NCBI RefSeq assembly: GCF_000022325.1
Contig: NC_012034.1
Location: 186,001-250,000, forward strand
From: Caldicellulosiruptor bescii DSM 6725
Lineage (GTDB): Bacteria > Bacillota > Thermoanaerobacteria > Caldicellulosiruptorales > Caldicellulosiruptoraceae
Reading direction: 5' to 3'
Length of the DNA stretch: 64,000 nucleotides
This document shows, one piece after another, positions 14,857 to 52,151 of this stretch. How positions within the stretch are numbered: the first letter of the stretch is position 1; each line of letters begins with the position of its first letter. The notes beneath the pieces are model-generated. The model was given only the letters and a program-made list of their open reading frames with translations. It searched no databases and was not told the origin of the DNA. Made by a program: the position numbers and the translations under genes.

Positions 14857-16029
14857 CTACATCTTCATTTCTTCCATTGGCAAGCCCAGCTTTTTAAATA
14901 TATTTTCTAAATTCTTCTGCATATTTTCAAAATCTTTATTAGTCAGCTTTGACATATCAGCACCTTTTGATATATCAATCTTGGGCACCTTTATATTTGC
15001 ATTCAAAGAATTTATAACACCTTTCATGTCAAACATAATCTTAAAATCATTGGAGTCTTTTAAGTAAAAGTATAATCTTTCACCTTTTAAGTTATTCTTA
15101 TCGTCTATCATCATTCTGTACTGAAGAGTAAAAGGTGGAATCTGTGGCTTTATTTCATCAATGGCATAAACAGCACTGTTAACAGCTTGAGTGTAGTTTT
15201 GGTTTACCTGATTTAAAATTTCACTTACATTTAAATCCTCAGCGTTTAGTCCTTCTCCTTCAGGTAACATCTGGGTCTGAAGAATTGCTTTTGAATCTTC
15301 AAGTATTAGTTTTAAAACTTGAAGTATAAACTCTTTTGTTTTAGTGTCATTGGCTGCTTTTGTTAAAATCACTTTTACAATTTCTAAGCTTGAGTTTTTG
15401 TTAAATTCAAAAATGACTTCGCTACAGCTCTGTTTTTTACCATCGCTAAAAACAACTTCCACTTTTTTATCAGAAGACTTAACAGCAGCTGCAAGTTGAG
15501 GCATCAAAACCGCAGCATAGCTTGCCACCAGTTCTTGAAGCTGTTTATTAGATCTTACATCAAACAATTTTGTATATTTTTCGACATCAATCTGAATAGG
15601 CATATTCTTATAAGTATCACTGAATTTTACATATAATGGTTTTGAGTAAATTTGTGGGAAGTTGTAAACAGCCAATTCTTTGTTGACGTAAACAGAACCA
15701 CTAAGGACTTGTTTGTTGTTGTAATACAAACTCAGTAACATATTGGATTCATAGTTATAAACATCAGCTACAACTCTTGCTTTTATATACGTTTTCTTCA
15801 AGAATTCTTCCAGTTTCTTATCCTCTGCTGTTGCATTTTTGCCTGCAGAAAGTCTTAAGTCAATTCTTATCTCTTCATCAACCGTTTTTGCGTTTTGTGC
15901 CTGCAGGTAAGCAATTCCAGCTTTGAAAAGGAGCGCAGAATTTGTCTGAGAATATGCAATAGAAGAAATTACAAAACTAAAAGCAACTACAAATGTGATG
16001 AGCAGCTTTATTGACCTTTTTAGTTTCAA
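14857..16029 (-). CDS. Secreted or lipid-free exported protein of unknown function
   Basis: I choose the TTG at 16029, which lies 8-9 nt after GAGGGGG; an ATG at 16050 would overlap that site. The 390-residue product begins with a signal peptide (KLKRSIKLLITFVVAFSFVISSIAYSQ). The mature part has alternating beta-like segments (VYVNKELAVYNFPQIYSKPLYVKF) and a long helical stretch near residues 195-260, ending in a charged region with MEEMKM. The pattern resembles outer-surface proteins that bind lipid or polymer, but I do not recognise the family. It has its own strong promoter. Confidence 0.75.
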   Translation of the reverse strand: MKLKRSIKLLITFVVAFSFVISSIAYSQTNSALLFKAGIAYLQAQNAKTVDEEIRIDLRLSAGKNATAEDKKLEEFLKKTYIKARVVADVYNYESNMLLSLYYNNKQVLSGSVYVNKELAVYNFPQIYSKPLYVKFSDTYKNMPIQIDVEKYTKLFDVRSNKQLQELVASYAAVLMPQLAAAVKSSDKKVEVVFSDGKKQSCSEVIFEFNKNSSLEIVKVILTKAANDTKTKEFILQVLKLILEDSKAILQTQMLPEGEGLNAEDLNVSEILNQVNQNYTQAVNSAVYAIDEIKPQIPPFTLQYRMMIDDKNNLKGERLYFYLKDSNDFKIMFDMKGVINSLNANIKVPKIDISKGADMSKLTNKDFENMQKNLENIFKKLGLPMEEMKM

Positions 16030-16073
16030 AAAAATTACCCCCTCGCGCATTTTTAGAAATTGAATATATGCTA

Positions 16074-26201: not shown

Positions 26202-26230
26202 TTGACTAGTAAACGCTTACGATATATTAT
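26202..26230 (+). promoter_or_regulatory. Promoter of the xylan-utilisation locus
   Basis: TTGACT (26202-26207), a 17-bp spacer and TATTAT (26225-26230). It gives a leader of about 145 nt before the first solute-binding protein. No other equally good promoter was noticed inside the locus, so it may drive many of the following genes. Confidence 0.75.
26209..26220. promoter_or_regulatory. LacI-family operator in the promoter spacer
   Basis: GTAAACGCTTAC is centred on CG and lies wholly between the -35 and -10, where binding would block RNA polymerase. The form NTAAACGNTTAN is that of LacI-family operators and also near the CcpA cre consensus, so either a xylose/xylan repressor or CcpA could bind. 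Confidence 0.65.
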
Positions 26231-26383
26231 ATAAACAAAAGAAAGTTGATTTTTAATATATTCAATTTTAAAAAAGGTTACAAAACCATTTATATAAAGA
26301 GTTTATAGGTTAAACTGCCTAATTTCTTAACAAATATAGTTTGGGCAAAATTACGTATAAATGTATCGAAGGAGATGATAGAT

Positions 26384-29239
26384 TTGTCTGGGTTTTTAAC
26401 AATTCTGAAAAGGACAAAATTTGTCATTGTATATTTACTAGTCATATTACTCATATTGCTCTGTAAAATCTCAGCATTTGCTTCAAGTGAAGTACCTACC
26501 CTTCAAGATTACCTAAAAAAAGTGGGAAATGTTGAAAGACCAAAGAAAGAAATTATAATTGAGGCAATTAATTACACAAGTTCAAGTAATGCAAGTGTCA
26601 GAAAAATATCACAATTCTATGGGCAAAAAGATGTGCTTTTATGGGAAAAAGAAGGTGGATGGTTAGAGTGGAGTGTAAATATTCCGGAAGATGGATTTTA
26701 TAATATGGCTCTTCTCTATTATCCTTTGCCAGGTAAAGGGCTGGGGATAGAATTTAGCGTATTTATTGATGGAAAAATTCCTTATAAAGAAGCCCAAAAA
26801 GTTACATTTCCAAGAGTATGGAAGGATACAACAGGAATTAGGAAAGATAAAAAAGGCAATGATTTGAGACCAAAATGTGATGAACACCAGCAATGGCAAA
26901 AAATTGATTTTATAGATACTGAGGGTTTCTATAACAAAGCTTTACCGTTCTATTTTACAAAAGGCGAACATAAAATTAGACTTATAAGTATTAGAGAGCC
27001 TATCGCATTGAAGCAGTTGATTATATATAACAGTGAGGAATTACCAACTTATGAGGAGTACATATCAAAAAGTCGTGAAAAAAATTCAAAAAATGTGTTT
27101 ATAAAAATTCAAGGTGAGAATACATATCTAAAATCTGATCCAATACTATATCCTACTTATGATAGAACCGACCCCGCAACAGAGCCTTATCATGTTTCTA
27201 AAATAAGACTTAACACAATAGGTCAGTGGAATTGGCGTTATCCGGGGATGTGGATAAGCTGGATTTTTGAAGTTCCGCAGGATGGATATTATAAAATTGC
27301 AATAAAAGCAAGACAGAATTTTGTCCGAGGGTTATCTGTTCACAGAAAGTTATATATTGACGGAAAAATTCCTTTCAAAGAAGCTGAGGATATTGAATTT
27401 CCATATAGTATTAGCTGGTATATGAAAACAATAGGCAAGAAAAATCAACCATATCTAATATATTTGAAAAAAGGTGTTCATGAATTAAGGTTGGAATCAA
27501 CCCTGGGTGCTTTTTCAGAGATTTTGAGTAGAGTTGAAAGTACCACAATAGATTTAAACAATTTGTATAGAAAAATAATAATGATTACAGGCACATCACC
27601 TGACTTGTATCGTGACTATTTCCTTGAAGAGCAAATACCAGAGCTTGTCAGTACATTAAAAAGATTAAGCAATGAGCTGGAAGAAGAAGCTGCTATGTTT
27701 GAAAAACTTGCAGGGCAAAAAGGCGGAGAAGCTGAGTTTTTAAGAAGAGTTGCTCTTCAACTCAGGAGTATGGCTGAAGATACTGACACAATACCTGGAA
27801 GATTAACAAGTTTTAGAGACAATTTGAGTGGATTATCTTCGTGGCTTGCATATAGAAGAGATCAGCCATTAGAGATAGATTATATTTTGATTACATCTCC
27901 TGAGGAAAAGCTGCCCTCGCCGACAGCTTCTATTGGTAATAAGATTGTTAATTCAATAAAAGCATTTTTGTATTCCTTTGTTGAAGATTACAATAACGTA
28001 GGTGAAGTGTATCAGGGGCAAAAGGTTATTAAAGTTTGGGTTGGCGGTGGTCGCGATCAGGCGCAGATTATAAGAGATCTAATCAATGATTCATTTACAC
28101 CACAGACAGGAATTAAAGTAAATGTTAGCCTGGTTCAAGCAGGATTAATTGAAGCAATACTTGCAGGAAAAGGTCCAGATATAGTTTTAACAGTTTCAAG
28201 GGCACAACCAGTTAATTTAGCCGCACGTGGTGCACTTGTTGATTTGAGCAAATTTAAAGATTTTAATGAAGTTAAAAAAAGGTTTGCTAAAACTGCTTTA
28301 GTTCCATATACGTATAATGGCGGTGTATATGGGCTTCCAGTTACTCAGGATTTTTATATGATGTTTTACAGAAAAGATATCTTAAAAGAGCTAAATATTG
28401 AATTGCCACGAACATGGGATGATATGTACAAAGTCATAGCAAAGCTTCAGAGATATAATCTTCAGGTTGGTCTTCCATATCAAAGGATTGACGCTCTTGA
28501 AGCAATTGATGCGGGGCTTGGTGCAAGAAATCTCTTTCCTACATTATTGCTTCAGTTTGGTGGAAGCTTTTATGACAAAACAAAAACACGAACACTATTG
28601 GATAGACCAGAAGCTGTAGCTGCATTTAAGACTTGGACAGATTTTTACACAAAGTACAATCTTCCTTTGATATATGACTTTTACAACAGATTCAGAACAG
28701 GTGAGATGCCACTTGGAATAGCACCATATACCACGTATAACCTGTTATCGACAGCTGCACCTGAAATTCGAAATGAATGGGGAATGGCACCAATACCTGG
28801 GGTAAAAAAGCCAAACGGTGAAATAGACCGTTCTACAGGTGGGTCAGGTACAGCATGTATAATATTAAAGAAAAGCAGAAATAAAGAAGCATGCTGGGAG
28901 TTTTTGAAATGGTGGACATCTGATGAAATTCAAACACAGTTTGGGAAAGAGCTTGAGATGCTGATGGGTACTGCTGCAAGATACAATACAGCAAATTTGA
29001 GAGCTTTTCAAAGACTTCCATGGAACAAAGAGGAGATAGAAAATTTAGAGACACAGTGGAAATATGTAAAAGAAATAGAGGAAGTTCCAGGAAGTTATTA
29101 CATTACAAGAAGTATAGACAGTGCATTTTCAGCTGTTGTTTATCAGGGGATAAATCCAAGAGAAAGTATGTGGAAATATACAAAAGAAATCAACGATGAG
29201 CTTGAAAGAAAGAGGATAGAGCTTAGTTTGAATAAATAA
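26384..29239 (+). CDS. ABC importer solute-binding protein with duplicated N-terminal sugar-binding-like modules
   Basis: Start is the TTG at 26384, 8 nt after AAGGAG; the ATG at 26375 touches that site. The 951-residue protein has an export signal (residues 1-36), two related beta-sandwich modules (about 55-215 and 235-375), a helical linker with a coiled-coil look (about 385-500) and a family 1 solute-binding domain (about 540-930: VIKVWVGGGRDQAQIIRDL, GPDIVLTVSRAQPVNLA). The module duplication shows in IPEDGFYNMALLYYP ... FIDGKIPYKEA versus VPQDGYYKIAIKAR ... YIDGKIPFKEA. Such sandwiches resemble CBM6/CBM35. There is no clear lipobox. It should capture long xylo-oligosaccharides for the next two permeases. 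Confidence 0.88.
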   Translation: MSGFLTILKRTKFVIVYLLVILLILLCKISAFASSEVPTLQDYLKKVGNVERPKKEIIIEAINYTSSSNASVRKISQFYGQKDVLLWEKEGGWLEWSVNIPEDGFYNMALLYYPLPGKGLGIEFSVFIDGKIPYKEAQKVTFPRVWKDTTGIRKDKKGNDLRPKCDEHQQWQKIDFIDTEGFYNKALPFYFTKGEHKIRLISIREPIALKQLIIYNSEELPTYEEYISKSREKNSKNVFIKIQGENTYLKSDPILYPTYDRTDPATEPYHVSKIRLNTIGQWNWRYPGMWISWIFEVPQDGYYKIAIKARQNFVRGLSVHRKLYIDGKIPFKEAEDIEFPYSISWYMKTIGKKNQPYLIYLKKGVHELRLESTLGAFSEILSRVESTTIDLNNLYRKIIMITGTSPDLYRDYFLEEQIPELVSTLKRLSNELEEEAAMFEKLAGQKGGEAEFLRRVALQLRSMAEDTDTIPGRLTSFRDNLSGLSSWLAYRRDQPLEIDYILITSPEEKLPSPTASIGNKIVNSIKAFLYSFVEDYNNVGEVYQGQKVIKVWVGGGRDQAQIIRDLINDSFTPQTGIKVNVSLVQAGLIEAILAGKGPDIVLTVSRAQPVNLAARGALVDLSKFKDFNEVKKRFAKTALVPYTYNGGVYGLPVTQDFYMMFYRKDILKELNIELPRTWDDMYKVIAKLQRYNLQVGLPYQRIDALEAIDAGLGARNLFPTLLLQFGGSFYDKTKTRTLLDRPEAVAAFKTWTDFYTKYNLPLIYDFYNRFRTGEMPLGIAPYTTYNLLSTAAPEIRNEWGMAPIPGVKKPNGEIDRSTGGSGTACIILKKSRNKEACWEFLKWWTSDEIQTQFGKELEMLMGTAARYNTANLRAFQRLPWNKEEIENLETQWKYVKEIEEVPGSYYITRSIDSAFSAVVYQGINPRESMWKYTKEINDELERKRIELSLNK

Positions 29240-29291: not shown

Positions 29292-30185
29292 ATGAGCCTA
29301 ATTGAAGACATAAAAAAGAATAAAGCAAGTTATTTAATGATAGCTCCATATATGTTATTATTTACGATATTCACATTAATTCCAGTTATAAGCTCTATAT
29401 TTTTAAGTTTTACAAATTACAATATGCTTCAGCCACCTAAATGGGTTGGATGGTCAAATTATATAAGATTGTTTCTAAATGATAAAATATTTTTAAAGGT
29501 GCTCAGGAATACTCTAATATTTGCATTTTTGACAGGACCGCTTAGCTATTTTATGTCTTTTTTCCTTGCATGGTTTATAAGTGAGTTCAATCCGAAGTTG
29601 AGAGCATTTTTAACACTTGTATTTTATTCACCTTCACTTGCTGGAAATGTGTTTTTCATATGGTCGTTTATATTCAGTGGCGATGTTTATGGACTTATAA
29701 ATGGATGGGCGATGAAACTTGGGATTATAGATGAGCCTATTAACTGGCTTCAGGACCCAAATTACATTTTATGGGTAATTATAATAGTTCAGCTTTGGCT
29801 TAGTATGGGTGCTGGATTTTTGGCATTTGTTGCAGGTTTTCAGAATCTTGATAGAGAACTATTTGAAGCAGGAGCAATTGACGGCATAAAAAACAGATTT
29901 CAAGAACTTTGGTACATCACAATCCCGCAGATGGCACCACAGCTTTTGTTTGGGGCTGTAATGCAAATAGGTGCATCATTTGGTGTTAGCACAGTTGTTA
30001 TGGCACTTGGGGGACTGCCAACAAGGGAGTACAGTGCAGACACTGTTGTGACTTATCTTATTGACTATGGGACAGTCAGATTTGAAATGGGCTATGCTTC
30101 AGCAATTGCAGTTGTGCTTTTTATTGCTATGCTTTTGACTAACAAGGTTATTACGTCAGTTTTGAGAAGATATTCATTTGATTAG
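29292..30185 (+). CDS. Sugar ABC transporter permease (MalF-like)
   Basis: This 297-residue protein has six helices and the permease EAA loop FEAGAIDGIKNRFQELWYITIPQMAP near residue 195, which contacts the ATPase. It belongs to the MalF/UgpA group of carbohydrate importers and pairs with the next gene. RBS GAAGGGAG precedes the ATG. No ATPase gene is nearby, so a shared MsmK-like ATPase is presumably used. Confidence 0.93.
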   Translation: MSLIEDIKKNKASYLMIAPYMLLFTIFTLIPVISSIFLSFTNYNMLQPPKWVGWSNYIRLFLNDKIFLKVLRNTLIFAFLTGPLSYFMSFFLAWFISEFNPKLRAFLTLVFYSPSLAGNVFFIWSFIFSGDVYGLINGWAMKLGIIDEPINWLQDPNYILWVIIIVQLWLSMGAGFLAFVAGFQNLDRELFEAGAIDGIKNRFQELWYITIPQMAPQLLFGAVMQIGASFGVSTVVMALGGLPTREYSADTVVTYLIDYGTVRFEMGYASAIAVVLFIAMLLTNKVITSVLRRYSFD

Positions 30186-30224: not shown

Positions 30225-31088
30225 TTGAACAGAAAAGCAATGTTGGTGTGGAGAAAACAAAACAGAAGCCTTGGAGGGAATATAGTAATATTCATTATCT
30301 TAGCGGTACTGGGTATATTTATGGCATTACCGCTTGTTTATACGATAGTCAACGCATTTAAGCCATTTGATGAAATCTTTATTTTCCCCCCACGGCTATA
30401 TGTACGGCGTCCTACACTTGATAACTTTGTCTTACTGTTTCAACTTGCAACAAACATGTGGGTGCCTTTTTCAAGATATGTTTTCAACAGCTTATTTATA
30501 TGCATTGTTGGCACAGTTGGTCATATTTTCATTGCATCGCTTGCTGCTTATCCGCTTGCCAAGCATCAATTTGCGGCAAAGAGGATTATAAATGAGATAA
30601 TAGTTCTTGCACTGCTTTTTACACCGCAGGTTACATATATTCCTCTTTATATAATTATGTCTAACTTAAAGCTTATTGATACTTATGGAGCACTGATTTT
30701 TCCGGCTTGGCAAATGACTCTGGGGCTATTTCTAATGAGACAGTTCATGACCCAGATTCCAGATGCACTTTTAGAAGCTGCTAAAATTGATGGTGCAAAT
30801 GAATTTTTGACATGGTGGCGTATAGTTATGCCAAATGTTAAGCCTGCGTGGCTGACGCTTATGATTTTATCATTTCAGCAGCTCTGGAACCAGACAGGTG
30901 GTTCGTTCATATTCAGTGAAAGTTTAAAGCCACTGCCTACTCTTATGTCACAAATAGCAGCAGCGGGTATTGCTCGTGCTGGAGTTGGTGCTGCTGTTGC
31001 GCTTGTGCTAATGATTCCACCTATTGTACTTTTTATCATATCGCAAAGCAGCGTCATGGAAACAATGGTAAATGCAGGTATTAAATAG
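30225..31088 (+). CDS. Sugar ABC transporter permease (MalG-like)
   Basis: The 287-residue protein has six helices and the EAA loop LLEAAKIDGANEFLTWWRIVMPNVKP. It is the MalG/UgpE-type partner of the preceding permease. The TTG start at 30225 follows GTAGGTGAG. The two permeases and the 951-residue binding protein form one importer. Confidence 0.92.
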   Translation: MNRKAMLVWRKQNRSLGGNIVIFIILAVLGIFMALPLVYTIVNAFKPFDEIFIFPPRLYVRRPTLDNFVLLFQLATNMWVPFSRYVFNSLFICIVGTVGHIFIASLAAYPLAKHQFAAKRIINEIIVLALLFTPQVTYIPLYIIMSNLKLIDTYGALIFPAWQMTLGLFLMRQFMTQIPDALLEAAKIDGANEFLTWWRIVMPNVKPAWLTLMILSFQQLWNQTGGSFIFSESLKPLPTLMSQIAAAGIARAGVGAAVALVLMIPPIVLFIISQSSVMETMVNAGIK

Positions 31089-31138
31089 TAAATAGTTATG
31101 TTGTAATTTCTTAAACTATGAAAGTAAAGGTGAGGACA

Positions 31139-33268
31139 GTGAAAGTTGAATTAAAAAGTATAAAGAGAAGTATAGTACTCATTTTTGCCATAAGCCTAAT
31201 ATTCCAAATAATAAGTACTACAAAAGTGTACGCATATATAATTGAAGATATGCGTGAAGTTCCATATTATCAATACAATTATGATGTATATCAGCATGAA
31301 ATACCAAGCGCTGCTGGTTATTATCCAGCAAAAACCATAAGAGGAGAATATATCGGTTCAGGCAGTTTTAAAAATCCAACAGATCTATATGTTGATAACA
31401 ATAATACTATCTATATTATGGACAGTGGCAACAAGCGAGTAATAGTCTGCGATAAAGACTTCAAACTTAAGAAAATTATAGATAAATTTTTCGATTCTAA
31501 TGGAACTATTCAACTTATTGAACCAGATGGAATATTTGTCGATAAAAGTGGTTTAATTTACATATGTGATAAGGGTTCTAAACTGGTCTGGATATTCAAC
31601 CAAGATGGCAAATTAATAAGAACCATAGAAAAGCCTGTATCAGACCTGAAAGCTGCTAAAAAAGATTTTATTCCATTTAAAGTTGTTGTTGATAATGCAG
31701 GGATTATCTATGTTCTTTCTTTGGGAAGTTTTGAAGGTGCTTATATGTTTGACCAAAATGGGAATTTTTTGGGGTTTTACGGGAGCAACAAAGTAGTTGT
31801 TACATGGCAGTTATTGGTTGATAGGTTTTGGAAGAGTATTTTAACAAAAGAACAGAAAAGTTCTATGGTAAGATATTTACCAACGGAATGTACCAGCATC
31901 GACATAGCTAAAGATGGATTTATATATACCTGTTCAAATTACACTGATGTAAGCGAAGGTGAAATAAGAAAATTAAACTATTTAGGCGAAAACATACTTT
32001 GGTATAAAAAGCAAGGCAGAACAAGAGACTATGGTGATATTTCAAAATATCAGGGGAAGGAGTTGGAAGATTCATATTTTATAGATATTGACGTGACTGA
32101 TGATGGATTTATCAATGCACTTGATTATGAACGAGGACGAATTTTTCAGTATGATCAAAATGCGAATTTGCTATTCATATGTGGAGGGAAAGGTGATCAG
32201 GTAGGCACATTTAAAGATCCAGTGGCTATAGATAGTATAGCAAATGATTTAGTTGTTCTTGATAAGCTAAAAGGAACAATCACAGTTTTTAAAGAAACAA
32301 AATTAGGAAGCTTAGTACATAAAGCAACGCTGCTATATAATGAAGGTAAGTACGATGATGCAAGGCATTTATGGGAACAAGTTCACAAAATGGATTTCAA
32401 TTTTTCACTTGCACATGTAGGTCTTGGCAAAGCACTTTTGAGGATGGATAAATATTCAGATGCGATGTATTATTTCAGGCTTGCAAATGATAAAGATGGT
32501 TATTCAGAGGCAAAAGAAGTTTTAAGAAATGAATTTTTAAAAAGAAATTTTGGGGTTATAGCAACAACTGTAATTGCTATAATAGTACTTTTGTATGTAT
32601 TAATAAAACGCTTTAGAAAGCCACCTACAGCTCAAGACATTTATACTAAAAAGATCGACAAGTATAAATATCCTTTACATGTAATGCTGCATCCATTTAG
32701 AGGCTTTGAAGAATTAAAAGAAGAGAGGAAAGGTTCTGTTATAATTGCAACATTTATTGTGTTTATATTCTTTGTAACTATGGTCATAAATAGACAATAC
32801 ACAGGATTTATCTTTAATCCGTATAGACAAGATAAAATTAACATATTGTCAATATTCTCAAGTACAGTTGGTATATTTTTCTTCTGGGTACTTTCTAACT
32901 GGATGGTATCCACTCTTACTGAGGGTGAAGGCAAGTTTGGAGAAATATGGGTATTTTCGGCATATTCTCTGACACCATATATTATTTGTACTCTTTTAGC
33001 AGTTGTTATGAGTCAATTCATGATTGCAGAAGAAGCAATGTTTATAAACTTTGTAAGACTTATTGGCACCTTATGGCTTGTAATATGCATATTTAATGCA
33101 ATAAAATCTGTTCATCAGTATACTCCAAGTAAAACTATAGGCACAATAGCTTTGAGTGTTTTGGGAGTAGGAATAATTCTTTTCATTATTGTATTAATGC
33201 TTACACTGTTTGGACAGTTAATAGACTTTATCAATAATGTGTACAGCGAGATACTCCTCAGGATATAG
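31139..33268 (+). CDS. Exported beta-propeller / TPR / Yip1-domain membrane protein
   Basis: I choose the GTG at 31139 (AAAGGTGAGG just upstream); an ATG at 31118 would add seven residues. The product (709 residues) has a signal segment (about 10-33), NHL-type propeller repeats (about 60-390: NPTDLYVDNNNTIYIMDSGNKRVIVCD, EPDGIFVDKSGLIYICDKGSKLVWIF), two TPR-like helical pairs (about 405-465), a helix near 475 and a C-terminal Yip1-like membrane domain with about five helices. The propeller should be outside the membrane. It has no catalytic signature. It sits between two ABC importers and may scaffold or sense. Confidence 0.82.
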   Translation: MKVELKSIKRSIVLIFAISLIFQIISTTKVYAYIIEDMREVPYYQYNYDVYQHEIPSAAGYYPAKTIRGEYIGSGSFKNPTDLYVDNNNTIYIMDSGNKRVIVCDKDFKLKKIIDKFFDSNGTIQLIEPDGIFVDKSGLIYICDKGSKLVWIFNQDGKLIRTIEKPVSDLKAAKKDFIPFKVVVDNAGIIYVLSLGSFEGAYMFDQNGNFLGFYGSNKVVVTWQLLVDRFWKSILTKEQKSSMVRYLPTECTSIDIAKDGFIYTCSNYTDVSEGEIRKLNYLGENILWYKKQGRTRDYGDISKYQGKELEDSYFIDIDVTDDGFINALDYERGRIFQYDQNANLLFICGGKGDQVGTFKDPVAIDSIANDLVVLDKLKGTITVFKETKLGSLVHKATLLYNEGKYDDARHLWEQVHKMDFNFSLAHVGLGKALLRMDKYSDAMYYFRLANDKDGYSEAKEVLRNEFLKRNFGVIATTVIAIIVLLYVLIKRFRKPPTAQDIYTKKIDKYKYPLHVMLHPFRGFEELKEERKGSVIIATFIVFIFFVTMVINRQYTGFIFNPYRQDKINILSIFSSTVGIFFFWVLSNWMVSTLTEGEGKFGEIWVFSAYSLTPYIICTLLAVVMSQFMIAEEAMFINFVRLIGTLWLVICIFNAIKSVHQYTPSKTIGTIALSVLGVGIILFIIVLMLTLFGQLIDFINNVYSEILLRI

Positions 33269-33295: not shown

Positions 33296-35497
33296 TTGTT
33301 TGATTTAAAAAAGTATAAACTAATCAGAACAATTGGAATAATATTTGCAATAATCATTACACAAATATTAAGTTTTCAAAAGATTTATGCAGACTCTGAA
33401 ATAAGTTTTCAGAAGATTGCTGCCAATGATAGGTTAGAATTGTATGTGAATAAAAAATATGGTTATTTCAAAGTTTTAGACAAGAAAACAAATATTGTAT
33501 GGTTGAGCAATCCAGAAAATTGGAAAGAAGACACTGTTGCAGCAGGAAGTATGAAAACACAGCTTGCATCTCAACTTGTAGTAAAATATGCTTTTATGGA
33601 GTCATATGCAATTCAAACGTCAAACAGCTATGTAAGCTCTGCAATGAAAAGAGGTTTGAAAATAAAGCCAATAAAAAATGGATATATAGCCACGTATTCA
33701 TTCAAAAAAGAGGGTTTTGTAATACCTGTTGCAGTAACAATTTCGAACGACTATCTGAATATTGAAGTGTTAGTCAATCAAATTAAAGAACTTAAAAAAG
33801 AAAAATACCGGCTTGTTTCCATTATGCTCTTGCCGTTTTTTGGAGCGGCAAGTAAAAGCGATAAGGGTTATATTGTTGTACCAGACGGTTGTGGAGCTGT
33901 GATAAATTTCAACAATAAAAAAGGAGAAGAAGAGTATTCACAGCGAGTATATGGTCCTGATTATGCCTTAATTAGAGAGCCCAACACGTATGTTACGCAG
34001 TATGCAAGGTTACCTGTCTTTGGAATGAATAAGAATGATTCGGGGTTTTTGGCGGTTGTAACGAATGGAGATTCAAAAGCAATAATAAATGCCTATACTA
34101 GTGGCGTTAGAACAAATTTTAATCAAGTTTTCAGCGAATTTATCATAAGAGAACAAGACAGTGTCACATTTAGAGAAAAGCAGTGGAATGAAAAAACGTT
34201 TAATATATTTGAAGAGAACATTCCAAATCAAACAAAGTACTCTATTAGATATTATTTCCTTGACAAGAATAAATCAGACTATATTGCGATGGCTGAAAAG
34301 TATAGAGAATATCTAATAAAGGAGAAAGGTCTTAAAAAAGAAGACCAGCAGAAATTACCTTTATATATTGAATTATACGGTGGAATGAAGAAAACAAAAT
34401 ATATTGTTGGGCTACCAAGAAATGTAACAATACCATTAACTACATTTGATGATGCTATTGAAATTTCAAAGAGATTGAAAAATATAGGTATTAAAGACAT
34501 AGTTGTGAAGTATACAGGATGGTATGAAAATGGAGTGTATTATAATCTTCCCATTTCACCAAAACCCGAGAAAGTTCTGGGTGGGTGGAAAGGGTTTAGA
34601 AAAATGATAGATTACTTCAATAGAAATAATATAAAAGCATATTTTGATGTAGATTTTGTAACATTTAGAAAAGGTTCATTGTTTTATCCTCTGAATGTTG
34701 TTGCCACAAAGTCTTTGAGAAAAATGCCAGCAAAACTTATTAGATATTCACCAGCTACATGCTATGCAGATGATGATTATCCTCTACTATTTATGGTATC
34801 TCCTTCATACGTGACCAAGTTTGTTGACAAATTTATTGGATCCAAACATGCAGAGATAAAAAATATATCTATCTCAACAATTTCTAAAATGTTATATTCA
34901 GACTTTGGTTCAAAACAAATAAACAGGTTAAAAACAGAAGAGATTTTTACTAATTTGGTAGAGAAGGTGACAAAGCAGTATAATGTTTTATTAACAAGTC
35001 CAAACGGCTATTTAATACCTAAGGGAAAAGAAATAATTGATGTACCTATTTCAAGCAGCAAATTTGCAATTGAGGACTATGAAATACCATTTTATCAGAT
35101 GGTGCTAAGAGGATATATTCCTTATTCTACACCAGCAATAAACGATTATACTAATGATTGGATGGTGTTATTGAAAACATTGGAAACAGGATCATTCTTA
35201 AAGTTTACATGGACCGCGAGAAATGAGGATGAATTGAAGGAAACAATGTGTGATTTTCTCTACTCATCAAATTATAGGATGTGGTTAAATGACGTAAAGA
35301 GTATGTACAGAAAAATTTATCCTGTACTGCAACAAATAAATAATAAAAAATTCTTAGAGCACAAGGTATTAAAGGAGGGACTTGTGTATGTTAAGTTTGA
35401 TGGTGGAGTGGAGATATTGTTAAATTATACTTCATCTGACCAAAAGGTTGGAAATACTGTTGTAAAAGCAAGAGATTTTAAAGTTATTAAGAGGTGA
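33296..35497 (+). CDS. DUF5696 exported protein with TIM-barrel-like core
   Basis: The 733-residue protein starts with a TTG after AAAAGGAGG and has a signal segment (residues 8-32). An N-terminal beta-sandwich (LYVNKKYGYFKVLDKKTNIVWLSNPENW) is followed by KGYIVVPDGCGAVINFNNKK and then a barrel-like region (about 370-600). There the strands DIVVKYTGWYENGVYYNLP, IKAYFDVDFVTF and SKMLYSDFGSK look like those of clan GH-D/GH101-type hydrolases. I recognise it as DUF5696, whose function is unknown. Asp residues in FDVDF and YSDFG are candidate catalytic groups. Neighbours are two ABC importers for plant sugars. Confidence 0.82.
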   Translation: MFDLKKYKLIRTIGIIFAIIITQILSFQKIYADSEISFQKIAANDRLELYVNKKYGYFKVLDKKTNIVWLSNPENWKEDTVAAGSMKTQLASQLVVKYAFMESYAIQTSNSYVSSAMKRGLKIKPIKNGYIATYSFKKEGFVIPVAVTISNDYLNIEVLVNQIKELKKEKYRLVSIMLLPFFGAASKSDKGYIVVPDGCGAVINFNNKKGEEEYSQRVYGPDYALIREPNTYVTQYARLPVFGMNKNDSGFLAVVTNGDSKAIINAYTSGVRTNFNQVFSEFIIREQDSVTFREKQWNEKTFNIFEENIPNQTKYSIRYYFLDKNKSDYIAMAEKYREYLIKEKGLKKEDQQKLPLYIELYGGMKKTKYIVGLPRNVTIPLTTFDDAIEISKRLKNIGIKDIVVKYTGWYENGVYYNLPISPKPEKVLGGWKGFRKMIDYFNRNNIKAYFDVDFVTFRKGSLFYPLNVVATKSLRKMPAKLIRYSPATCYADDDYPLLFMVSPSYVTKFVDKFIGSKHAEIKNISISTISKMLYSDFGSKQINRLKTEEIFTNLVEKVTKQYNVLLTSPNGYLIPKGKEIIDVPISSSKFAIEDYEIPFYQMVLRGYIPYSTPAINDYTNDWMVLLKTLETGSFLKFTWTARNEDELKETMCDFLYSSNYRMWLNDVKSMYRKIYPVLQQINNKKFLEHKVLKEGLVYVKFDGGVEILLNYTSSDQKVGNTVVKARDFKVIKR

Positions 35498-35504
35498 ATA
35501 TTTA

Positions 35505-36425
35505 ATGCAAAGAACTAATTTATTAAAAATATTTCCAAAAAGAAAGCTTACTCTTAGGCAAAAAGAAGCGTTATACGGCAGATTATTTATCCTGCCATGG
35601 CTAATTGGACTTGTTATATTCTTTATAATTCCTTTTATAAATTCCATATATTACACGTTTCACAAAATAAGATTAGGCGACAATGGTTTGGAGTTTGAAT
35701 TTATTGGATGGGAAAATTATATATATGCGTTTACAAAGGACCCCGACTATTTAAAAAATTTGACATCGTCTATAACAAATATGCTGTATGAAGTTCCTAT
35801 AGTAATAATTTTCAGTGTTTTTGTTGCATATTTGTTAAAAGATGATTTCAAGGGAAGAACCTTTGCCAGAACCATATTTTTCTTTCCGGTAATTATAGCA
35901 TCAGGAGTTGTTATAACGGTATTGAAAGAAAACGTCCTTGGAAGCAACACATCAAGCATGGTGGCTTCATCTACAACAATTTTTAAGGCTGAGAATTTGA
36001 GAGCGGTTATGATAAACGCAGGTGTACCAAGATGGTTCAGTATGTATATTGTCGACATAGTAAATAAGATATTTGACCTGACATGGAGGTCTGGGGTTCA
36101 GATACTTTTGATACTTGCAGCGCTACACAACATTCCAAAAAGTTTTTATGAAGTTGCAATAATTGAAGGTGCGACAGAATGGGAGAAGTTTTGGAAGATA
36201 ACTTTTCCAATGATTTCGCCCACAATACTTGTTGCAGTCATATATTCAATAATTGATTATTTTACTGACTATGGCAACCAAGTAATGAGAATGGTTGTAA
36301 ATCAGGCGAATAACGGGAAGTTTGAATATAGTACAACTTTAGCAATAACCTATTTCTTAGTGGTTATGATAATAATTTTAATTGTAAACAGAATAATTGG
36401 TAAAAGGGTTGTTTACTTAACTTAA
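35505..36425 (+). CDS. Sugar ABC transporter permease (MalF/LplB-like)
   Basis: This 306-residue permease has six helices and the EAA loop FYEVAIIEGATEWEKFWKITFPMISP. An extended periplasmic-side loop near residues 130-190 is typical of the LplB-like group that works with large binding proteins. It pairs with the next permease and with the binding protein at 37.5 kb to form the second importer of the locus. It lies 7 bp after the DUF5696 gene. Confidence 0.9.
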   Translation: MQRTNLLKIFPKRKLTLRQKEALYGRLFILPWLIGLVIFFIIPFINSIYYTFHKIRLGDNGLEFEFIGWENYIYAFTKDPDYLKNLTSSITNMLYEVPIVIIFSVFVAYLLKDDFKGRTFARTIFFFPVIIASGVVITVLKENVLGSNTSSMVASSTTIFKAENLRAVMINAGVPRWFSMYIVDIVNKIFDLTWRSGVQILLILAALHNIPKSFYEVAIIEGATEWEKFWKITFPMISPTILVAVIYSIIDYFTDYGNQVMRMVVNQANNGKFEYSTTLAITYFLVVMIIILIVNRIIGKRVVYLT

Positions 36426-36454: not shown

Positions 36455-37474
36455 ATGAAAGTTGCAAGAGCAATTAAGCTCAACTATACCTTTGAAAAGT
36501 TTAGAATTACAGATGTTTCAAAGCTAGTATTCAAAAAAAATCTATTTATAGTTTTAAAGAAGCTATTTCTGTACACATTCATAATATGCATGAGCTACAT
36601 ACTATTGTATCCAATACTATTTCTAATAAGTAATGCACTAAGGGCAAAAGAGGATTTGTTTGACCCGAGCGTTATATGGATACCGAAGCATATAACTTTT
36701 AAAAACTTTGAATATGCCAATATGCTTTTATCATACCCATTGGCAATAAAAAATACGTTAATTATCCTAATTCCATCGGTTATTATTCAGACATTCATAT
36801 GCATGATGGTCGGGTATGGTTTTGCTAGGTTTAGATTTGCAGAAAGAGAGTTATTATTCGGGATATTGCTTTTTACAATTATTGTTCCAATGCAAACAAT
36901 AATAGTCCCACTTTATATGAAATTTAGATATTTTGATTTTCTTTACATTGGCAAACTTATAGGAATTTTTACTGGAAAACCAATGACAATAAATTTGCTT
37001 GATACACCTTGGCCATTTTATATACTGAATTTTTTCGGGATGGGAATAAGGTCAAGTTTGTACATCTTTGTTTTCAGGCAATTCTTTAGAAATATGCCAG
37101 TTGAATTGGAGGAAGCAGCAAAGATTGACGGATGCGGACCATTTTCAACATTTTTGAGAATAATGGTTCCTAACGCGACAGGAGCAATAATAACAATTTT
37201 GCTCTTTACAATAGTATGGCACTGGAACGACTATTATGTTTCGGCTATGTTCTGTAATGAGAATTTGCCTGTATCAGTAATGTTAACCGCACTCAACAAC
37301 AGGATGAGCATGATTCAGGATGCATATGGTTTTTCATCAGATGATATTTACCTGATTGGTTCTAATGTACTTGAAGCAGGGTGTTTGATGGTAATTTTAC
37401 CACTGATTATTGTGTATATCATTGGACAGAGATATTTTACTGAAAGTATTGAACGTACAGGTATAGTTGGTTAA
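36455..37474 (+). CDS. Sugar ABC transporter permease (MalG/YtcP-like)
   Basis: The 339-residue protein has an N-terminal extension of about 30 residues, six helices and the EAA loop ELEEAAKIDGCGPFSTFLRIMVPNATG. It is the second permease of the second importer. RBS AAGAGAGGCGAG precedes the ATG. A 10-bp hairpin separates it from the binding-protein gene. Confidence 0.9.
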   Translation: MKVARAIKLNYTFEKFRITDVSKLVFKKNLFIVLKKLFLYTFIICMSYILLYPILFLISNALRAKEDLFDPSVIWIPKHITFKNFEYANMLLSYPLAIKNTLIILIPSVIIQTFICMMVGYGFARFRFAERELLFGILLFTIIVPMQTIIVPLYMKFRYFDFLYIGKLIGIFTGKPMTINLLDTPWPFYILNFFGMGIRSSLYIFVFRQFFRNMPVELEEAAKIDGCGPFSTFLRIMVPNATGAIITILLFTIVWHWNDYYVSAMFCNENLPVSVMLTALNNRMSMIQDAYGFSSDDIYLIGSNVLEAGCLMVILPLIIVYIIGQRYFTESIERTGIVG

Positions 37475-37516: not shown

Positions 37517-37548
37517 AATAAAAAACATGAATGAGGAGGTTTGAGATT

Positions 37549-39336
37549 ATGGTAAGACCAAAGATTGTTAAAAGAATTATTTCGGTTTTAGTAGCTATTT
37601 GTATGCTTGCTTCAGTTGCTTTGATTGTGGGCAAGTCTCCACAAAGAGTGCAAGCGTCATCAAAACTTGGTGACATTTCATTCTTAAGACCTGGTTTTTC
37701 TAAAGAGAGTTTAAAAAGTACTGACATTTTCAACAAAGCAGTTGCAAAGGCAATTGAAGACTATCAGAAAAAATATGGTGGAAAAGTAAACATAGTATAT
37801 TCTGACTGGAACAACTGGCAAACAAAGATAATTGCAAGGATGGCTGCAGGTGATCCAATCGATGTTATTTTTGGAGGAACCGGGACATTTCCGGCATTTT
37901 ACAACAGAGGGCTTGTACAACCACTTGATAAGTATGTTGATTTGAAAGCTCCATATATAAACAAAAGAGCAATGGACTATGCATTCAAGTACAATGGTCA
38001 CTACTATTTAGCAAGCCAGAAAGGTTCGAATGTTCCATGGCTGGTTATATATAACAAAGACTTAATGTTAGAAGAAGGTATTGATGAAGAAGAAATGCCG
38101 CTTGCTCTTTACAAGAAGGGAAGATGGAACTGGGATACATTTGCCGCACTTGCTAAGAAGCTGACAGCTGATACAAATAAAGATGGAAAGATTGATAGGT
38201 ATGGTGTAAACTTCTGGGCAGCAACAGCTATTGTATACGCAAACGGCACACAGTTTGTTAAGGTTGATTCATCTGGTAAAGGCAAGGTAAACTTTGATAA
38301 TCCAGCGCTTCAGAGAGCATTGAACTTCTACAAAAAGGGTGCAAAAGAAGGCTGGCTTGCTAGAGACTGGGATATAACAGTTTCTGGTTTGAAGAAGAGA
38401 CAAACTGTAATGCTTGTTGCACCACAATATAAATTTGATCAGGACAAGAGAGAGGTTGAAGATGAGCTTGAAGCTGCTCCATTGCCACTTGGACCAGACA
38501 ACAAGTCAGGGCTTTATCCATTCGATGCAGACGGGTATGGCATTATGAAGGGTTCAAAGAATCCAGTTGGTGCTGGAAAGTTTATTAACCTGTTATTAGA
38601 AAGCGTCCAAAAGAATCATGATGATGTCAATGCAAAAAATAGACCAAAATACTTAGTAGATTTTGTTAATAAGCTTGCAGAAAAATCTTTCTATCCAGGC
38701 TTAGGAGAGTCAATGCTTGGTATGCCACACTGGGATATATTCGGAAGAGTTGACAGTTCTGACTCTGTTGCAGCTGCATTGTCAAGTTTGAGACCTCAAG
38801 TTGAAAAGAACGTCAAAGAAGCTTCAGCTGGTGCTATTAATGCAGTTTACAAACCATTCAAGCCATTTACAATTAACTTTGAGGATGGAAAATTAGATAC
38901 ATTCAAAGTTTTAGATACATCAAAGAAGACAGTTAAACTTTCAATTGCTTCAGGTAAAGAAGCTATAAAAGGAAAATCCTTGAAGGTAACTTGGGACCAA
39001 GGAAAAGACGGTGGCGAGATTTATGTAGTAACAGCACCAGAAAAGGTTAAGATATACGGGTGGCATGACTATACTGTAAGCTTTGATGTCAAAGTCTTGA
39101 AAGCACCAAAAGCTGGCAAGACGACAGTTGTATGTTCAATCCTCAATGATACAAAACCAAATGCAACATCTTATGGCAGCATTACAAAGACAATTGATAA
39201 AGGTCAGACTGTCTACCATGTAGAAGGTAATATTACAAATATTCCAGATAACTCTGACAAGATGTGCTTGAGAATTGGCGTTCAAGAAGGAGTAGACTTT
39301 GTAATTGATAATATTAAGGTTGTAGAACTTGAATAA
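37549..39336 (+). CDS. ABC importer solute-binding protein with C-terminal CBM-like module
   Basis: The start is the ATG at 37549 after GGAGGTTTGAG; an ATG at 37531 would include the ribosome site. The 595-residue protein has a signal peptide ending near VQASS, a family 1 binding domain (about 30-430: VIFGGTGTFPAFYNRGLVQPLDKYV, VPWLVIYNKDLM, GDPIDVIF) and a C-terminal beta-sandwich (about 440-595) ending VDFVIDNIKVVELE, like CBM22/CBM4_9 modules. No standard lipobox is visible. Flanking mRNA hairpins may raise its expression over the permeases. Confidence 0.88.
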   Translation: MVRPKIVKRIISVLVAICMLASVALIVGKSPQRVQASSKLGDISFLRPGFSKESLKSTDIFNKAVAKAIEDYQKKYGGKVNIVYSDWNNWQTKIIARMAAGDPIDVIFGGTGTFPAFYNRGLVQPLDKYVDLKAPYINKRAMDYAFKYNGHYYLASQKGSNVPWLVIYNKDLMLEEGIDEEEMPLALYKKGRWNWDTFAALAKKLTADTNKDGKIDRYGVNFWAATAIVYANGTQFVKVDSSGKGKVNFDNPALQRALNFYKKGAKEGWLARDWDITVSGLKKRQTVMLVAPQYKFDQDKREVEDELEAAPLPLGPDNKSGLYPFDADGYGIMKGSKNPVGAGKFINLLLESVQKNHDDVNAKNRPKYLVDFVNKLAEKSFYPGLGESMLGMPHWDIFGRVDSSDSVAAALSSLRPQVEKNVKEASAGAINAVYKPFKPFTINFEDGKLDTFKVLDTSKKTVKLSIASGKEAIKGKSLKVTWDQGKDGGEIYVVTAPEKVKIYGWHDYTVSFDVKVLKAPKAGKTTVVCSILNDTKPNATSYGSITKTIDKGQTVYHVEGNITNIPDNSDKMCLRIGVQEGVDFVIDNIKVVELE

Positions 39337-49048: not shown

Positions 49049-49083
49049 AAAAAATTTAGTATATGAAAGGAGAGCAAACACAC

Positions 49084-50250
49084 ATGAAAATAAATATTTA
49101 TCCAGAAATTAAGTTAGGCAAGATAAATAAATTCTGGACAAAGTGTGTAGGCAGCTGTCATGCAGCAACTGCCCTGAGGGAGGATTGGAGAAAGCAGCTG
49201 AAAAAGTGTAGGCAAGAACTTGGGTTTAAATATGTCAGATTTCATGGCTGGCTTAACGATGATATGAGTGTTTGCTTCAGAAATGATGAGGGCAAACTTT
49301 GGTTTTCATTTTTCAACATTGATTCTATTATTGACTTTTTATTGGATATTGGAATGAAACCTTTTATAGAATTGAGCTTTATGCCTGAAGCTTTAGCATC
49401 TGGTACAAAGACAGTTTTTCATTATAAGGGCAATATAACTCCGCCAAAATCCTATGAAGAGTGGGGACAACTTGTTAAAGAACTTACAAGACATCTTGTA
49501 AAAAGATATGGTAAAAATGAGGTAAGAGAGTGGTTTTTTGAGGTATGGAACGAACCGAATTTGAAGGACTTTTTCTGGGCAGGGACAATGGAGGAGTATT
49601 TTGAGCTTTATAAGCATGCAGCGTTTGCAATCAAGATAGTTGACTCTGAACTGAAAGTAGGAGGACCTGCATCAGCAGTAGATGCGTGGATTTTGGAGCT
49701 GAAAGAGTATTGTCAGAAAAATGGAGTACCAATAGATTTTATAACAACACACCAGTATCCAACAGATTTAGCGTTTAGCACAAGTTCTAATATGGAAGAA
49801 GCCATGGCAAAAGCAAAAAGAGGTGAGCTTGCTGAAAGAGTAAAAAAGGCTTTGAGTGAAGCAGAACCTTTGCCTTTGTATTATACTGAGTGGAATAACT
49901 CGCCGAGTCCGCGAGACCCGTACCACGATATTCCATATGATGCAGCATTTATTGTGAAGACTATAATAGACATTATTGATTTGCCGCTTGGTTGTTACTC
50001 ATACTGGACATTCACAGATATATTTGAAGAGTGTGGGCTAAGTTCATTGCCTTTCCATGGAGGGTTTGGACTTTTAAATATTCACGGTATACCAAAGCCG
50101 TCATATAGAGCATTTCAAATATTGAATAAATTAGATGGAGAAAAGGTAGAACTTAAAGTTGAAGAAAAAAGTCCAACTGTAGACTGCATAGCAGCTATAA
50201 ATGGCAATGAATTAGTTCTTGTTATTTCAAACCATAATGTTCCGCCTTAG
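49084..50250 (+). pseudogene. GH39 beta-xylosidase, 5' part, truncated by an IS element
   Basis: The ATG at 49084 follows AAAGGAG. The reading frame gives 388 residues and then ends at a TAG (50248-50250) inside the inserted element; the last native codons are at the 9-bp target duplication. The part kept includes the whole catalytic barrel with Glu157 (VWNEPN) and Glu269 (YTEWNNSP). The missing part is most of the C-terminal beta-sandwich, found at 51856-52151. The intact gene would code about 486 residues. It is a diverged paralogue of xynB. The truncated protein may fold poorly; activity cannot be judged. Confidence 0.9.
50237..50245. repeat. Target-site duplication, left copy
   Basis: ATGTTCCGC; the identical copy is at 51856-51864. 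Confidence 0.9.
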
Positions 50251-51855
50251 TGTAAAATATTTATAGGACATTGGATGGAAAAAAGCTCCCTCCTCTTGGT
50301 AGAAGAGAAAAAATGAAGTAGAATATAATGATGAAAAAATAAAAAAAGAAAAAGGAAAAACAAACCAAAGGAGGGAGCAAAATGACTGAAAATATTGTAT
50401 CAAAAATAGAAGAACTTTTAAAGACTTTTGAGGAAGGATTAGAGAAGATAGTGAAAAGGGAGAAGGATTTAGCGGAATATTCAATTGAACTTAAGAAGCA
50501 GTTAGACCTGATAGGCAAGGAGATGATAAAGGAAGCATGTGAACTTATAGATGAATCATTGAAAGAAAACGAAGAGAGGAAGAAGAGGTATGAAGTTGTG
50601 AGGAGAGACAAGAGGGGTTTAAAGACAATATTTGGTGATATTGAATATGAGAGAACATATTACAAAGATAAGGAAGGCAAAGGATATGTTTATTTAGTTG
50701 ATATAGTTTTAGGGATAGAGAGATATCAAAGGATAGACAATGCGGTAAAGGGAGCGATAATAGAGAGAGTAGTAGACATGTCATATGAGAAGGCAGCAAA
50801 GGAAGTATTAGGGGAGGATAGGATTAGTAGACAAAGTGTAATGAATATTTTGAAAGGGATAGATAGTAAAGAATTAGATGAAATCCAGCATAGCAAGAGT
50901 GTAAAAGGAGAGAAGAAAGTTGTAAAAGAGCTTTATATCGAGGCGGATGAAGACCATATTTCATTACAGAATGGGAAGAAAGAGATAGCGAAGCTTGCTT
51001 ACATAAATACGGGATATAAGGAAGAGAAGGGCGTTGTTATTAGGAAGGAATTAAAGGATTTGCATTATTTTAGCAGTGTAAAAGAGGATGCAGATGATTT
51101 TTGGGCAAAAGTGGGTAAGTATATTGAAGAGAATTTTGAAGTTGAGAAGATAGAAAACATATATCTTTTAGGAGATGGAGCTAATTGGATAAAGAAGGGA
51201 TTAGAGTGGATAGATGGAGCGGAATTTGTATTAGATAAGTTTCACTTAACGAAGGAGATAATGAAAATAGCAGGAGGGGATAGAAAATTATTTAATGAGA
51301 TTTTGAAAGCATTAAGAGAGAAGGATAGAGAGGGATTTGAGGCATTAGTAAAAGAAAAGATGGAGGAGGTAAAAGAAGATGAGTTAGCTAAGAGGAGGAT
51401 AAAGAAGGGAAGGAGATACATACTTTCGCACTGGGATAATATAGTATTAGAAGCAGCGAATGTTAATATAAAGGGATGTAGTGCAGAAGGGCATGTAAGT
51501 CATGTATTAGCAGAGAGGATGAGTTCAAGACCAAGAGGATGGAGCGAAGATATAGCGGAGACCATGGTAAAGTTATTGAGTTTAAAATATAATGGTTTTG
51601 AACTTATGAATGTATATTTAGAGAAGATAAAAGCCAAGAAGTCAGAAAGGCAAGAAGTTAAAGAAATAGCAAAAGGAATTATAAAGAACGGGAAAAGAGT
51701 ACGAAAAGGTACGGAAAAGTGGAATAATATACCAGTTATAGCAAATGGTAAAGTTAACCAGTTACGAAGAGCATTAAAGTCTTTGATTAGTTGTAGCTTC
51801 TATAATGCAGGTATATTCTGATAAAAATTTTTTCCTACAAACTCTTGACACTATC
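50246..51855 (+). mobile_element. ISLre2-family insertion sequence (1610 bp)
   Basis: The element is bounded by 9-bp duplications ATGTTCCGC. Its ends are imperfect inverted repeats: left CTTAGTGTAAAATATTTATAGG, right (complement) GATAGTGTCAAGAGTTTGTAGG, with AGTGT near the tips conserved. It holds a single transposase gene and short flanks. The intact ends and identical duplications suggest recent insertion. Confidence 0.9.
50382..51821 (+). CDS. ISLre2-family transposase (UPF0236)
   Basis: The 479-residue protein matches the UPF0236/ISLre2 transposase type. It has a coiled, charged N-terminus, then RRDKRGLKTIFGDIEYERTYYKDK, ELYIEADEDHISLQNGK, YLLGDGANWIKKG, EFVLDKFHLTKEI and CSAEGHVSHVLAERMSSRPRGWS, in the usual order. 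Asp/Glu residues in EADEDH and GDGANW are likely catalytic. The frame is full length with an AAAGGAGGGAG ribosome site, so the element may still be active. Its codon use is richer in AGG/GAG purine codons than the neighbouring genes. Confidence 0.93.
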   Translation: MTENIVSKIEELLKTFEEGLEKIVKREKDLAEYSIELKKQLDLIGKEMIKEACELIDESLKENEERKKRYEVVRRDKRGLKTIFGDIEYERTYYKDKEGKGYVYLVDIVLGIERYQRIDNAVKGAIIERVVDMSYEKAAKEVLGEDRISRQSVMNILKGIDSKELDEIQHSKSVKGEKKVVKELYIEADEDHISLQNGKKEIAKLAYINTGYKEEKGVVIRKELKDLHYFSSVKEDADDFWAKVGKYIEENFEVEKIENIYLLGDGANWIKKGLEWIDGAEFVLDKFHLTKEIMKIAGGDRKLFNEILKALREKDREGFEALVKEKMEEVKEDELAKRRIKKGRRYILSHWDNIVLEAANVNIKGCSAEGHVSHVLAERMSSRPRGWSEDIAETMVKLLSLKYNGFELMNVYLEKIKAKKSERQEVKEIAKGIIKNGKRVRKGTEKWNNIPVIANGKVNQLRRALKSLISCSFYNAGIF

Positions 51856-52151
51856 ATGTTCCGCTATCCCCTATAAACAGTGAAAAAATAACTGTTACAA
51901 TAAATGGTATTAGAGAATGCAAAGAAATTTATGCAGAGAGGATAGATGAATACAATGCAAATCCCAAAAGAAAGTGGGTTGAAATGGGCTGTCCAGAATA
52001 TCTGAATAATGAACAAATTGAAGAGCTGATTAAATCATCAAAAATGAAGAAAGAAGAGATATTATGGAGAGCAAAAGGCGAGAATCAAGTTGCCTTTGAG
52101 ATAAATATTTTACCCCATTCAGTTATAGGAGTTTCTATAAAAATAGTATAG
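51856..52151 (+). pseudogene. GH39 beta-xylosidase, 3' fragment after the IS
   Basis: Removing the IS and one duplication joins AAT GTT CCG to CTA TCC CCT in frame. The continuation encodes NSEKITVTINGIRECKEIYAERIDEYNANPKRKWVEMG and ends at TAG 52149-52151. It matches the xynB tail ([21 protein letters not shown] against WVEMGCPEYLNNEQIEELIK). It has no start signals and is presumably untranslated. The right copy of the duplication is at 51856-51864. Confidence 0.88.

Follow-up and report, generated by a model that had tools for sequence, protein, structure and literature searches.

The window analysed here is a stretch of 64,000 nucleotides of Caldicellulosiruptor bescii DSM 6725 (contig NC_012034.1, positions 186,001 to 250,000), and it holds a same-strand run of genes encoding, in order, a large solute-binding protein (SBP), the permeases perm1 and perm2, an NHL-TPR-Yip1 membrane protein, a DUF5696 protein, the permeases perm3 and perm4 and a second SBP, followed by GH43, GH10 and GH39 genes (Table 1). 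A XynR operator is located upstream of the first gene of this run. The first-pass annotation, made from the sequence alone, had placed the DUF5696 gene between two importers and xylanases, and Pfam assignments bear this out, with permeases and SBPs on both sides and the GH43, GH10 and GH39 genes downstream. Two permeases and an SBP are encoded together, as in CUT1 ABC importers. No ATPase gene was found in the import cassette by the Pfam scan; MsmK has been described as the shared ATPase (PMC8579813).

Table 1. Features of the DUF5696 gene, its product and the surrounding operon (positions in the window)
Feature	Position	Strand	Basis
XynR operator, xylan degradation locus; exact match, once in the window	26205..26224	+	operator from PMC12285236, Table 1
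Large solute-binding protein of 954 aa; C-terminal half holds the SBP domain	26375..29239	+	Pfam
ABC permease perm1	29292..30185	+	Pfam
ABC permease perm2	30225..31088	+	Pfam
NHL-TPR-Yip1 membrane protein, constant upstream partner	31118..33268	+	Pfam, adjacency, seven hydrophobic segments
DUF5696 protein, GH129-type fold, 733 aa, TTG start	33296..35497	+	ORF list, Pfam, AlphaFold2 model
N-terminal hydrophobic segment, residues 1-32, probable signal peptide	33296..33391	+	hydropathy peak 9-27; low-confidence helix in model
N-terminal beta-sandwich, residues 38-322	33407..34261	+	AlphaFold2 model
Most conserved segment, residues 191-222 (GY..VPDG.GA...VYG.D), holding D197 and D222	33866..33961	+	column conservation
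Barrel domain, eight strands, residues about 356-640	34361..35215	+	AlphaFold2 model
Trp409, past barrel strand 2	34520..34522	+	W in 105/111
Ser527, where GH129, GH101 and relatives have their catalytic nucleophile	34874..34876	+	fragment model ending at 528; column acidic in 10/111
Asp536, nine residues beyond the nucleophile position	34901..34903	+	D in 99/111
Arg544, nearly invariant	34925..34927	+	R in 110/111
Asn570, past strand 5, at the GH101/GH129 acid/base place by spacing	35003..35005	+	N in 105/111
C-terminal beta domain, residues 686-733	35351..35494	+	AlphaFold2 model
ABC permease perm3, constant downstream partner	35505..36425	+	PF00528, adjacency
ABC permease perm4	36455..37474	+	PF00528
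Second solute-binding protein	37531..39336	+	Pfam

Previously, this operon has been described as xloEFG-X-GH129-axoFGE-xynF-xynE-xynD-xyn10A-xynX-xynB and as xylan-induced (PMC8579813), and the permeases and SBPs flanking the DUF5696 gene belong to its CUT1 importers XloEFG and AxoFGE. GH129 is listed at the operon place of the DUF5696 gene in Table 3 of that paper. Because the DUF5696 gene takes this place, a glycoside hydrolase label is already in print, and the proposal of the first-pass annotation that the enzyme was an unrecognised one cannot be maintained. The fold family, the GH129 label, the induction by xylan and the control by XynR are all known. In its accessible text, PMC8579813 treats the two importers with GH129 and X between them and proposes no transporter role for GH129. 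Our literature search, which covered few subscription journals, returned no paper naming DUF5696 and none on a missing nucleophile or on the partnership of NHL-TPR-Yip1 proteins with permeases.

Several other features of the window were observed. The first 560 or so residues of the 954-aa SBP match no Pfam family. In the NHL-TPR-Yip1 protein, a single chain combines an NHL beta-propeller, TPRs and a Yip1 domain with several membrane passes; many relatives have two ORFs in its place. A GH39 beta-xylosidase gene of this operon is broken up: a part of 395 aa (49063-50250) is followed by a UPF0236 (transposase-like) ORF (50382-51821) and then by a remnant that matches the GH39 C-terminus (51942-52127). 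In addition, the ORFs at 9697-13920 (1407 aa, + strand) and 14857-16050 (397 aa, - strand) have no Pfam match at E 0.001.

The DUF5696 gene is present as a single copy in the C. bescii genome. The ORF, as well as all three sequence strings quoted in the first-pass annotation, is present in the DNA, and an AGGAGG-like ribosome site lies 5' of it. Residues 122-728 match PF18952 (DUF5696) with an E-value of 2.9e-183 and a score of 611.1 bits against a curated cut-off of 25.6. Based on the hydrophobic segment at residues 9-27, it is most likely that the protein is secreted; by-eye reading puts the signal peptide cleavage after YA.

To describe the neighbourhood of the gene across relatives, we used two sets of loci: set one comprises the best 80 of 581 confirmed DUF5696 stretches and hence leans to close relatives, and set two comprises 20 more divergent regions hand-chosen from profile matches in 15 genomes. 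A gene for an NHL-TPR-Yip1 protein adjoins the DUF5696 gene upstream in all 99 loci with upstream sequence (79/79 in set one and 20/20 in set two). In set one it is directly adjacent in 75 loci, separated by one called ORF in three, and also present in L118, which was counted after removal of a start-site artefact of ORF calling; L055 has no upstream sequence. In set two, L149, which ORF calling had likewise made an exception, was counted by tblastn. Similarly, an ABC permease gene is found downstream in all 96 loci with downstream sequence (77/77 and 19/19, respectively). In set one, the permease follows in 76 loci and in L107, where an opposite-strand ORF precedes perm4, and the other three loci are contig ends.

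The remaining parts of the cassette are less constant. The large SBP occurs in 67 of the 80 cassettes of set one and in 14 of the 20 of set two, where the first permease pair and the large SBP are found together in no more than 14 regions. Six regions (L152-L156 and L158) contain only the NHL protein and DUF5696, plus the second permeases where the contig allows. The constant core thus consists of the NHL protein together with DUF5696 and the second pair of permeases. Further downstream, where 94 of 187 ORFs were scanned, the 25 families listed out of 89 included GH26 (12), GH10 (11), GH43 (4), GH95 (4), GH38 (3) and solute-binding proteins (12).

The AlphaFold2 model of the DUF5696 protein, based on a 44-sequence alignment, has a mean pLDDT of 91.3 and a pTM of 0.90 and consists of an N-terminal beta-sandwich, an eight-strand barrel and a C-terminal beta domain; our alignments A2 and A4 drew on 43 of the 80 loci. 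The top Foldseek match is 5opq (E 3.4e-32), followed by NagBb and then by GH101, GH36, GH13, GH31 and GH97 structures. VIA-align gave Z 29.3 for 5opq (576 residues, rmsd 4.1) and Z 28.9 for NagBb 5wzn (564 residues), both matches spanning model residues 38-733, and the next best entry reached Z 20.3. The sequence profile alone recovers DagB/ZgGH129 (5opq/8rzg) at E 2e-9 and NagBb (5wzn) at E 3e-6. Since two independent methods, structure matching and sequence profiles, agree, the GH101/GH129-type fold is supported, as the first-pass annotation had supposed in describing a beta-sandwich and a TIM barrel of the glycoside hydrolase kind. Among the matches listed for the four families that it had named for comparison, GH129 structures stand first and match over the whole length, and GH101 and GH36 score lower. 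GH36 stands lower in the VIA-align list, GH31 appears in the Foldseek and fragment-model lists (a family missing from the VIA-align structure lists is not thereby excluded), and both presumably place the nucleophile column at Ser527. The barrel strands that the first-pass annotation had read from the sequence were partly right: AYFDVDF forms strand 3 and VVKYTGW strand 2 with its loop, whereas KMLYSDFG is located past strand 4 and not on it in the model.

The family-level profiles were less informative. The protein has no match to PF11308 (Glyco_hydro_129) at E up to 1. This profile gave zero matches anywhere in 299 genomes including C. bescii, and the genome search therefore does not show absence. 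Pfam Glyco_hydro_101 does not match the protein either, and PF12905 was not found in the C. bescii genome. A search of plasmids and viral contigs with the ZgGH129 fragment found no relative, and PADLOC gave no match.

Each of the solved relatives shares some features with the DUF5696 protein and differs in others. The 3,6-anhydro-D-galactosidase DagB/ZgGH129 (ZGAL_3152; 5opq, 8rzk), which its authors proposed to place in a new family and not in GH129 (PMC5698469), has the sandwich, barrel and C-terminal domain in common with it, but carries the nucleophile D486 where the DUF5696 protein has Ser527, at 15% identity. The GH129 alpha-N-acetylgalactosaminidase NagBb (5wzn) also matches over the whole length, but has the nucleophile D435 at this place, at 11% identity. 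The GH101 endo-alpha-N-acetylgalactosaminidases (5a55, 2zxq) share the fold and the nucleophile register; however, they are larger, reach only Z 18-19 and retain D764 and E796.

The nucleophile position was located by folding residues 38-528 alone (pLDDT 91.0), so that the last residue reports its structural partner and the superposition reads the end of the truncated model. Residue 528 of this fragment pairs with residue 487 of 5opq and of 8rzk, 436 of 5wzn, 464 of 9ayu, 790 of 2zxq and 765 of 5a58. The nucleophiles are D486 in DagB and D435 in NagBb (PMC5698469), and nucleophile mutants occur among the matched structures (8rzk D486N, 9ayu D463A and 5a58 D764N). Because residue 528 pairs with the residue following the nucleophile in each structure, Ser527 superposes on D486, D435, D463 and D764. 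The pairing with 2zxq 790 likewise presumably fits the nucleophile of EngBF. The GH36 and GH31 rows of the same superposition end at 479, 483 and 406, which presumably fits the nucleophiles of AgaSK, LaMel36A and YihQ. An hhalign comparison of A2 with three GH101-type barrels also sets Ser527 opposite the nucleophile Asp in the L133 protein, at a probability of only 11 and E 0.0028 and with an unreliable alignment at strand 5. Judged from the superposed model, the DUF5696 protein has lost the GH129 catalytic nucleophile.

Conservation was examined in a 116-row alignment of the window protein, the 80 loci of set one and 35 of the 50 loci L001-L050 (of the 15 left out, four were not DUF5696 and the rest were repeats or near-copies), which was reduced to 111 rows by merging rows at least 98% identical. 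In these 111 relatives, column 527 is R in 45, S in 22, G in 11, A in 6, D in 6, T in 4, L in 4 and E in 4, with other residues in the rest. Within a Ruminococcus group, L068 has D at 527 and neighbours 71-80% identical have S, G, V or A, whereas D536 and N570 are constant in 15 of 15 sequences. Because column 527 drifts in this way among such similar proteins while D536 and N570 are fixed, it behaves as an unconstrained site. The acidic residue present at 527 in 10 of the 111 rows counts against the reading of a lost nucleophile; none of these rows is also acidic at 570.

Neither of the nucleophiles suggested in the first-pass annotation agrees with these data. The FDVDF motif offers D451 and D453, which are Asp in only 64 and 31 of the 111 relatives, and the superposition places the nucleophile at Ser527. 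The Asp of YSDFG, D536, is well kept but lies nine residues beyond that position. Conserved acids at strand ends, on which the glycosidase proposal had been made to depend, are lacking at strand 4, where Ser527 stands, and elsewhere D536, D594, E630, D197 and D222 are conserved.

Besides the residues counted in Table 1, the barrel columns G413 (106 of 111), Y572 (106), D594 (98), P598 (111), G606 (111), N616 (109) and E630 (91) are strongly retained, as are D197 and D222 of the N-terminal sandwich (107/111 each). Conservation is highest in the loops that follow strands 5 and 7 and in the N-domain loop 191-222; its mean is 0.637 for segment 191-222 against 0.462 across the whole sandwich. Loop conservation was 0.458 at the catalytic face and 0.421 in the other group, the latter comprising only 19 residues; the catalytic face is therefore not singled out, and a pocket role gains no support from loop conservation itself. 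The GH101 acid/base E796, which is mutated in 5a59, sits past strand 5, and so does Asn570. The spacing between residues 527 and 570 is 43 residues, with an uncertain profile alignment at strand 5; the acid/base of NagBb is presumably E478, which would give the same spacing of 43 between its nucleophile and acid/base. Judging by this spacing, Asn570 probably stands in for a lost acid/base.

We propose, with moderate confidence, that the DUF5696 protein is a secreted GH129-fold protein without the nucleophile and would grip glycans outside the cell as a subunit of a CUT1-type ABC import cassette. Because the nucleophile is lost at Ser527, and probably the acid/base at Asn570 as well, hydrolysis by the GH129 mechanism is not expected. 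Its place would be the cell surface, close to the membrane-anchored NHL-TPR-Yip1 scaffold, with which it may be in contact, and it would hold the ends of oligosaccharides uncut in the former active-site pocket, putatively formed by Trp409, Asn570, Tyr572, Asp536, Asp594 and the N-domain loop 191-222. In this way it might raise the local supply of oligosaccharides and help to pass them on to the SBPs and permeases. Glycan enzymes that change beside a fixed DUF5696 gene are what an importer part predicts, and not what a trimming enzyme for one linkage predicts. The outside trimming enzyme envisaged in the first-pass annotation is thus a poor fit, as the nucleophile is lost and the neighbours that stay constant belong to the importer, in contrast to the variable enzymes.

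A broader proposal, which we advance more tentatively and with somewhat less than even expectation, is that the DUF5696 family as a whole consists of pseudo-glycosidases turned obligatory subunits of a composite Gram-positive importer, in which the dead GH129 site acts as an oligosaccharide docking pocket. Such an importer would comprise the NHL-TPR-Yip1 scaffold, DUF5696 and one pair of permeases, to which a second pair and a giant SBP are often added. The SusD-like lipoproteins of Bacteroidota offer an analogue for this kind of glycan docking at an importer. CAZyme pipelines can count DUF5696 proteins as GH129, implying breakdown of mucin or carrageenan in plant-fibre eaters. If the proteins are indeed non-catalytic importer parts, the GH129 reading would be wrong for a widespread family, with at least 581 candidate stretches, and they would represent an additional protein class in Gram-positive glycan import.

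The main rival, which we consider less likely, is an active glycosidase or transglycosidase that relies on a new set of catalytic residues, either D536 with D594/E630 or D197/D222 contributed by a second monomer. The conserved carboxylates D197, D222, D536, D594 and E630 could form such a set, and the loops following strands 5 and 7 and the loop 191-222 are the best conserved. The active site of the second monomer of DagB receives D202 from an N-terminal-domain helix, and activity is lost when D202, D486, E517 or E531 is mutated (PMC5698469). Because a protein of the same fold uses an Asp of the second monomer, relocated acids are not far-fetched. If DUF5696 pairs as DagB does, segment 191-222 could line a pocket, and this keeps relocated catalysis under consideration. 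However, D536 is replaced by N, H, A, Q or E in 12 of the 111 relatives and E630 by A, S, V or D in 20, and the linked enzymes and glycans vary while the gene stays, which hardly suits a fixed hydrolytic specificity.

Less probable still is a role of DUF5696 in scaffolding or assembling the importer without any remaining glycan binding, in which case its conservation would reflect surfaces that touch the permeases and the NHL-TPR-Yip1 protein. The fixed gene partnership and the location of the best-conserved segment in the N-terminal sandwich, outside the barrel, are consistent with this role, but the polar and aromatic residues at the barrel mouth would then hardly be expected to be retained as they are (W409 in 105, N570 in 105, Y572 in 106 and N616 in 109 of 111). 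An ordinary GH129 enzyme of the alpha-N-acetylgalactosaminidase or anhydrogalactosidase type that trims side chains, in line with the label in PMC8579813, is very improbable: although the solved structures nearest to the model belong to GH129 or resemble it, Ser occupies the nucleophile position here, 101 of the 111 relatives have no acidic residue there, and the linked genes serve xylan and other glycans. The least probable role is that of a sensor whose pocket detects released oligosaccharides, with signalling or gating of the importer left to the membrane partner. The beta-propeller, TPRs and multi-pass Yip1 domain of this constant partner speak for such a role, but Pfam finds no known signalling domain in either protein.

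Some proteins at the borders of the family were also observed. GH101-like proteins are encoded at L136 (61-2691) and L133 (1417-2733), in one genome in which several DUF5696 genes are present as well. Their matches to PF12905 are at 1e-16 and 6e-21, respectively, and the L136 protein also matches PF18952 at 1.1e-3. These two proteins may be links between GH101/GH129 and DUF5696. Sub-threshold matches of the DUF5696 profile to GH13 and DUF6259 barrels were rejected as shared barrel sequence only. The DUF6259 protein at L028 (580-2568) reaches E 2.5e-5 against the barrel part of this profile, and DUF6259 may represent a further family of unassigned glycosidases with a barrel.
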